Origin: Microbacterium sp. LWO13-1.2
GTDB lineage: Bacteria; Actinomycetota; Actinomycetes; Actinomycetales; Microbacteriaceae
DNA: 64,000 nucleotides
NCBI RefSeq assembly: GCF_038397725.1
Contig: NZ_CP151634.1
Span: forward strand, 2,790,001-2,854,000
Direction of reading: 5' to 3'
Both the position numbers and the translations under genes were made by a program. Every line of letters starts with the position of its first letter. Positions within the stretch are counted from its first letter, which is position 1. Below, one piece after another: positions 45,352 to 45,435 of this stretch. The notes beneath the pieces are model-generated. The model was not told the DNA's origin and searched no databases. It saw only the letters and a program-made list of their open reading frames with translations.

Positions 45352-45357
45352 TACCAT
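45352..45357 (+). promoter_or_regulatory. Leaderless -10 box for the leuA leader peptide
   Basis: TACCAT ends six bases before ATG 45364, the start of the Leu-rich leader peptide. The -35 region (around 45329-45334) is not a good match. Confidence 0.5.
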
Positions 45358-45363
45358 GGCCGC

Positions 45364-45417
45364 ATGCCTTTCGGCGGTCTGCTTCTTCTTAGCTGCCGCG
45401 ACGAGTCCTCCAGCTAG
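45364..45417 (+). CDS. leuA leader peptide (17 aa)
   Basis: The 17-codon frame encodes MPFGGLLLLSCRDESSS. Four consecutive Leu codons (CTG CTT CTT CTT, 45379-45390) end four bases before the left arm of a perfect hairpin, and the stop lies in the loop. Leader peptides rich in the end-product residue are the sensor in ribosome-mediated attenuation. No ribosome binding site is visible, and the -10 box is six bases upstream, so it is probably read from a leaderless mRNA. The frame is too short for routine gene finders. Confidence 0.72.
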   Translation: MPFGGLLLLSCRDESSS

Positions 45418-45435
45418 GGCCTTCCTCGTCGCGGC
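45395..45435 (+). terminator. Attenuator hairpin of leuA
   Basis: GCCGCGACGAG (45395-45405) and CTCGTCGCGGC (45425-45435) form a perfect 11-bp stem with a 19-base loop. A ribosome stalled on the Leu codons at 45379-45390 would cover the left arm and stop the hairpin forming. The tail GCTTGTGTTGG is only moderately T-rich, so whether it terminates transcription is inferred. Confidence 0.65.

Follow-up and report, generated by a model that had tools for sequence, protein, structure and literature searches.

The element that precedes leuA in the window (the whole analysed stretch of 64,000 nucleotides from Microbacterium sp. LWO13-1.2) is the LEU element, an RNA element already predicted before actinobacterial leuA, and we consider it probable that it is a leaderless, leucine-sensing leader controlling leuA, most likely at translation, with its run of Leu codons serving both as the sensor and as a lock on the leuA Shine-Dalgarno (SD) region. 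We infer the leucine response, the stalling of ribosomes and control at translation rather than at transcription. Since the LEU element upstream of actinobacterial leuA was predicted in 2005 by Seliverstov et al., with Leifsonia xyli in the genome list (PMC1262725), the layout in the window, which the initial annotation had called unusually compact, is not unusual. This arrangement is the rule in an element that is found class-wide and has been in print for that long, and a near-identical leaderless leader of Streptomyces lividans is described in PMC8079986.

The features of the element lie on the plus strand. The leader ORF (45364..45417), the frame of which is kept in relatives, starts with the ATG at 45364 and consists of 17 codons, MPFGGLLLLSCRDESSS, followed by TAG at 45415-45417, as read directly from the letters; it is probably leaderless, i.e., starts at or near the 5' end of the mRNA. 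The 17-codon frame with four successive Leu codons reported initially is present, and the codons CTG CTT CTT CTT (45379..45390) are the proposed sensor and anti-SD strand. The box TACCAT (45352..45357) lies six bases before the ATG, as had been stated, and is a -10-like box of the form TANNNT, assigned from its sequence and from the conserved position in other elements. The 11-bp hairpin, whose loop contains the stop codon, was likewise found: P1 has the left arm GCCGCGACGAG (45395..45405) and the right arm CTCGTCGCGGC (45425..45435), both supported by folding and covariation, and forms 11 Watson-Crick pairs around a 19-base loop, the last C of the right arm being paired in the window only and not conserved. 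The frame had been said to end four bases before the left arm; the four-base gap is there, but what ends at that point is the Leu run and not the frame.

The putative pseudoknot P2 joins GGGCC in the P1 loop (45417..45421), the first G of which also closes the TAG stop codon, with GGCCC (45445..45449). Further downstream are the leuA SD region GAGAAGAAGC (45465..45474), complementary to GCTTCTTCTT at 45381-45390, and the leuA ATG (45481), 63 bases after the leader stop. The leuA gene (45481..47235) encodes a 2-isopropylmalate synthase of 584 aa, which scores above the cut-off of TIGR00970 and has HMGL-like, IPMS_D2 and LeuA_dimer domains, and upstream of the leader a divergent ORF with a lipoprotein-like beginning starts at 45285 on the minus strand. 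An Rfam search gave no relevant family at the window element. We regard the feature as more than chance, since the fold of segment 45358-45482 surpasses those of 197 of 200 dinucleotide shuffles (z -2.36) and further copies of the element are found throughout the class.

For the distribution, 38 genomes were searched and a LeuA match was found in 37; all of the 30 loci obtained have a Leu-run leader before leuA, the leader of one of them (L026) being read by eye. A covariance model (R1), built from 25 leuA-leader sequences and containing P1 only, had a match (E<=0.01) in 365 of the 394 in-class genomes, belonging to 126 of 137 genera. When 119 genomes were drawn from the phylum, R1 had matches in 11 of them at E<=1e-4, ten within the class and one outside, and the non-matching genomes among those listed were all outside the class. 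The sole out-of-class match, G522:C191:4091-4175 (E 3.4e-6), may be due to transfer or chance. A DNA pattern of the core was found in at least 119 stretches in named genomes, and the 80 listed comprise 67 before leuA, 11 before leuC and 2 unclassified. They are mostly from Microbacteriaceae (Microbacterium, Leifsonia, Leucobacter, Cryobacterium, Rathayibacter and others), with Micromonospora, Planomonospora, Paractinoplanes, Actinocorallia, Nakamurella and Herbidospora among the further genera. Comparison thus shows, at the level of sequence, that the element is conserved class-wide; Leu codons and stem are kept in relatives, and the lack of conservation that had been predicted in case the initial reading was wrong failed to appear. 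One record titled as an Acidobacteria MAG (L260) has both a LEU element and a leuA with 81% identity to the window LeuA, and is probably a mis-binned actinobacterial contig.

The tests described below mainly used 154 elements, in which identical leaders were counted once: 89 before leuA, 29 leuB-type, 18 before leuA paralogues, 14 before leuC, 1 before leuS and 3 without an identified gene. From 120 elements cut out, L088, L106, L129, L162 and L167 (E 9e-4 to 3e-3) were dropped as chance-like matches inside other genes, as were L078, which runs into the end of its contig, and L069 and L070, which repeat L057 and L058; L001 and several of L031-L060, being repeats or near relatives, were also left out. 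A subset of 65 genomes was chosen for having at least two matches. Leader frames were picked by a script for their L/V/I content, and therefore the presence of at least three Leu in 89 of 89 leuA leaders is partly by construction. L165, with a broken leader frame, and the weak minus-strand L145 row have no leader and are absent from the leader, pairing and -10 tests; both remain in the 67-row alignment A4 used for P1 covariation. In L165 (G307:C277:1962-2046) the leader frame stops after four residues, with leuA-paralogue elements nearby on the contig, and this is perhaps a decayed element.

In 145 of the 154 elements a TANNNT box precedes the chosen leader start, its end lying 4-10 nt away, most often 6 nt, and the same test in three control windows further upstream gave a mean of 0.3 per 154; several of the nine misses look like wrongly chosen starts. 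Leader starts show no SD complementarity (median -1.75 kcal/mol) beyond that of random positions (-2.2). The position of the box is evident from comparison, and together with the SD result it suggests that the leader is read from the mRNA end, in agreement with what had been claimed. A leader with a ribosome binding site from a distant upstream start, the other sign named beforehand as speaking against that claim, did not appear either. A sigma-70 consensus scan of 45250-45600 gave no promoter-like site, and assignment of the window box as -10-like depends on the conservation of TANNNT at that place. The leader MRFGLLLLSCRGEGL (LeuL1) before leuA of S. lividans is reported in PMC8079986 to be transcribed leaderless, its start being taken from RNA-seq.

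Covariation of P1 is apparent when the elements are compared. In the leuA set (89 distinct rows) 92.6% of the cells are paired and 4 of 11 pairs are changed on both sides; the 53 double-changed cells were reached by 0 of 500 shuffles, and the pair count alone by 14 of 500. The other set (67 rows) gave similar values: 92.8% paired, 5 of 11 pairs changed on both sides, and 46 double-changed cells reached by 0 of 500 shuffles (pair count alone, 24 of 500). The alignments were fitted to P1 and therefore lean towards it; slid partners score far lower. Since the outermost window pair, 45395-45435, is unpaired in 68 of 89 distinct rows, the conserved P1 helix has 10 pairs. Genomes of this kind have many short Leu-rich frames and GC-rich hairpins, and a chance juxtaposition of the two without function might be imagined, but class-wide conservation and covariation refute this and we give it practically no credence.

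P2, the helix of which corresponds to one predicted in PMC1262725, scores 17.56 with its own partners against 14.82 with permuted ones in the 154 elements, the maximum of 10,000 permutations being 15.66. Against shuffled letters the scores are 16.5/13.6 for leuA, 22.3/13.5 for paralogues and 20.0/14.2 for leuB-type elements, while the leuC group gave no signal above shuffled letters (13.3/13.0). A local helix of 45405-45409 with 45416-45420 inside the P1 loop competes with P2 in the fold, and two alternative folds are described for the LEU element too (PMC1262725).

The Leu codons appear to have a second function, which was overlooked in the initial annotation. In the window, GCUUCUUCUU (45381-45390) can pair with GAGAAGAAGC (45465-45474, -16 to -7 of leuA) by 10 pairs including one G-U, and this stem scores 22.8 versus 8.3 for synonymous recodings, 0 of 200 of which were as good. 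This stem score is ungapped, compares the tract with -22..-4 and uses gene starts re-chosen partly by SD strength; it replaced a duplex-energy test after the negative first result of the latter had been seen, because that test was taken as swamped by unrelated G-C pairs. The duplex-energy test, with the tract against -28..-1, found the natural sequence better than recoded ones in 57 of 121 elements (p 0.68). With the stem score, 72 of 89 leuA, 16 of 18 leuA-paralogue and 14 of 14 leuC elements had a natural tract above the average of its 200 synonymous recodings, and among these 121 elements 31, 8 and 4, respectively, were individually below 0.05; with gene starts not chosen by SD, the natural tract was better in only 54 of 89 leuA elements. 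A stem of at least five pairs was found in 80 of 89, 14 of 18 and 14 of 14 elements of the same three groups.

Partners were also exchanged among elements. Over 122 elements, including the leuS one, tracts scored 14.31 with their own SD partner versus 13.06 in 20,000 permutations (maximum 13.95); for unique pairs with the last three codons the values were 13.17 versus 12.42, and the test still holds without near relatives (p 0.002, n=91). Within genomes, the own partner was better in 13, worse in 7 and tied in 6 of 26 swaps (p 0.10), and the swaps were one-sided only for leuA/leuC pairs (5 better, 3 ties). Codon usage in the tract is also peculiar, and a CTT bias is shown by comparison of the sequences: the last three tract codons are CTT in 215, CTC in 122 and CTG in 20 of 357 cases, where the downstream genes would lead us to expect 4.9, 120.1 and 230.2, and CTT is absent from the 42 Leu codons of the window leuA gene. 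CTT and CTC are decoded by one tRNA, and therefore an account by slow codons explains the preference for CTT over CTC poorly. Runs of CUU and CUC resemble the 16S anti-SD. The correlation of CTT with A (rho 0.45) was lost without near relatives (rho 0.15, p 0.15, n=90). On these tests and on the independent prediction in PMC1262725, we hold the base stem between the Leu codons and the leuA SD to be likely, not proven; the sequences support both this stem and P2 short of proof.

From these features the following switch can be proposed. When leucyl-tRNA is ample, ribosomes would pass the Leu codons and be released at the stop codon inside the P1 loop; P1 and P2 would then fold, and the Leu-codon run would pair with the leuA SD region, by which leuA would be shut. 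When leucyl-tRNA is scarce, a ribosome stalled on the Leu codons would cover them and the beginning of P1, the base stem could not form, and the leuA SD would be free. In constrained folding, a model without pseudoknots and kinetics, the SD openness of the 89 leuA elements was 0.29 when free, 0.44 with a ribosome on the Leu codons and 0.32 with one at the stop, and a ribosome on the Leu codons raised it in 53 of the elements and lowered it in 11. The corresponding values in this model were 0.30, 0.46 and 0.39 for leuC and 0.13, 0.61 and 0.52 for the window. The stop state of the window is thus poorly locked in the model, with the SD half open (0.52), which counts against the lock reading. The initial annotation held that a ribosome stalled on the Leu codons masks the left arm directly; a Leu-sensing leuA leader and coverage of the start of P1 are retained here, but masking is probably not the whole switch, because a terminator tail is lacking and the Leu codons are predicted to pair with the SD.

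Alternatively, transcripts may end within the leader under ample leucine, either through Rho or at a hairpin terminator of low strength, which a stalled ribosome may prevent; such transcription attenuation seems to us unlikely though worth serious consideration. Short attenuator transcripts are described at leuA of C. glutamicum (PMC4046766), where PMC8709942 speaks of transcription attenuation; they point to premature transcript ends in that species. In the window, T makes up 5 of 8 bases in the tail that follows P1. However, the sequence after P1 in the window (CUUGUGUU / CTTGTGTTGG) has no T run longer than 2, and runs of at least 5 occur in 1 of 89 leuA elements and in 0 of the other 61 (0/18 paralogues, 0/14 leuC, 0/29 leuB-type), so that the hairpin itself can hardly be the terminator-type attenuator that it had been taken for. 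LeuL1 is described without a typical terminator in PMC8079986, and neither a conserved nor a mutually exclusive antiterminator was seen in the window and element folds computed. An intrinsic terminator at P1 was considered and rejected for want of a U run; a terminator scan (loops of 3-8) also gave none. Because of the absence of a U run and the modelled opening of the SD on stalling, translational attenuation is preferred to transcription attenuation.

Seliverstov et al. interpreted the element as the binding site of a regulatory protein (ML1624 orthologues, DEAD-box-like), the leader peptide being secondary. They argued this from the phyletic pattern and cited mutants (PMC1262725), and the strongly conserved bases in P1 are in its favour. 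In PMC1262725, Craster et al. 1999 is cited once for leader mutations that had some effect, unlike classical attenuation, and a second time for regulation uninfluenced by Leu-codon mutations; the Streptomyces mutant data so cited count against codon sensing. A tract of dual use would lose lock and sensor together, and thus Leu-codon mutants could not separate the two. Against a protein-binding site, third positions vary while frame, Leu run and in-loop stop of the leader are kept (the stop lies in the P1 loop in 150/150 elements of the leuA, leuA-paralogue, leuC and leuB types, with script-picked frames), and the sensor residues become Val/Ile/Leu in another gene context. We regard a protein-binding site as rather improbable and retain translational control by a ribosome on the Leu codons.

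The element also occurs before other genes. The window genome has a second copy, L061 (G000:C1:3261275-3261359, minus strand), with the leader MRRVVLLLSGRDETSI, followed by a leuC above the TIGR00170 cut-off and then by a leuD-like frame. Its LeuC reaches 98.8% identity with named Microbacterium records, in keeping with that genus. In family f1, taken to be Microbacteriaceae (21 genomes, 20 with at least two matches, six of these not fetched), each of the 14 genomes fetched has one copy before leuC; outside f1, none of the fetched elements is a leuC copy. Eighteen distinct copies precede a divergent leuA paralogue. A LEU-like element with the leader MRAANLLLTGPRRAS lies before leuS in L154 (G306), and its tract-leuS SD pairing is nothing special.

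Val/Ile/Leu leaders such as MRQVLVLITCRGGA are found in 32 more elements, which belong to seven families (f2, f17, f23, f24, f32, f35 and f42), and 29 of the 32 are before leuB. V or I is found near the tract, instead of a Leu run, in all 32 leaders before the small ORF/leuB, and these codons match the prediction for a codon sensor. In 27 of the 32 (L130, L150, L153, L067, L175 and others) the first ORF is a conserved small ORF, which is followed by leuB, and in several cases leuB has, by eye, its own TANNNT just before the ATG. The small ORF product has 26-50 residues and ends in ALQ-A-(M/L)-D-(R/L)-RDNGG, e.g., ALQEAMDRRDNGG; four small ORFs as cut, whose starts are doubtful, have 19, 20, 67 or 75 residues, and the length of 19 occurs twice. 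The small protein matched no Pfam or NCBIfam family above cut-off. A profile search with it gave 2,180 relatives (E<=0.01), the best 120 of which have no Pfam domain and only hypothetical or uncharacterized names.

We tentatively propose, at somewhat less than even confidence, that LEU elements are a class-wide family of leaderless ribosome-sensing translational switches, in which the sensor codons double as anti-SD and are retuned per gene, with Leu runs at leuA, its paralogues and leuCD of Microbacteriaceae and with Val/Ile/Leu at the small ORF/leuB. The literature searched yielded neither the copies at leuC, the paralogues and the small ORF nor the codon bias and the retuned sensors, but this absence is weak, as subscription papers were mostly beyond reach. 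If the proposal is true, there is a leucine or branched-chain amino-acid (BCAA) "ribosome regulon" without a dedicated regulator and with an orphan small protein among its outputs. The analysis turns a 20-year-old computed element of disputed mechanism into a specific testable model, in which the sensor codons are the lock codons. The model predicts that a change of the Leu codons destroys both, by which the mutant data cited in opposition to attenuation might be reconciled. Internal controls are provided by the extra copies, which have different SD and codons in one genome and point to a conserved small protein that is seemingly under BCAA control.

Canestrari and colleagues are said to have found, in mycobacteria, that a sequestered ribosome-binding site is released, and in the enterobacterial leu leader BCAA codons in a short ORF sense starvation, with a terminator and an antiterminator. 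The mycobacterial leaders, which are leaderless polycysteine short ORFs (Canestrari et al. 2020, cited in PMC9031893), resemble the window element in having a leaderless poly-X ORF, ribosome pausing and control of a downstream gene; they differ in that they sense cysteine and have no homology as far as tested, whereas the Leu tract of the window is predicted to pair with the SD itself. The ilvB leader attenuators of Corynebacterium likewise sense starvation by BCAA codons in a short leader ORF, but are described with a terminator and antiterminator (PMC10272879), none of which was seen in the window element. LeuL1 of S. lividans is similar in being located before leuA and in lacking, according to PMC8079986, a typical Rho-independent terminator; it is from one species and has an RNA-seq-mapped start, whereas the window leader is known from its sequence. 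PMC1262725 presents the LEU element as a protein-binding element of leuA and one transposase only, and we propose here leaderless ribosome sensing and add further copies. The likeness, as judged from the description in its text, includes a leader ORF with a Leu run, a hairpin with a loop pseudoknot, a base stem of Leu codons with the SD and the absence of a classical terminator.
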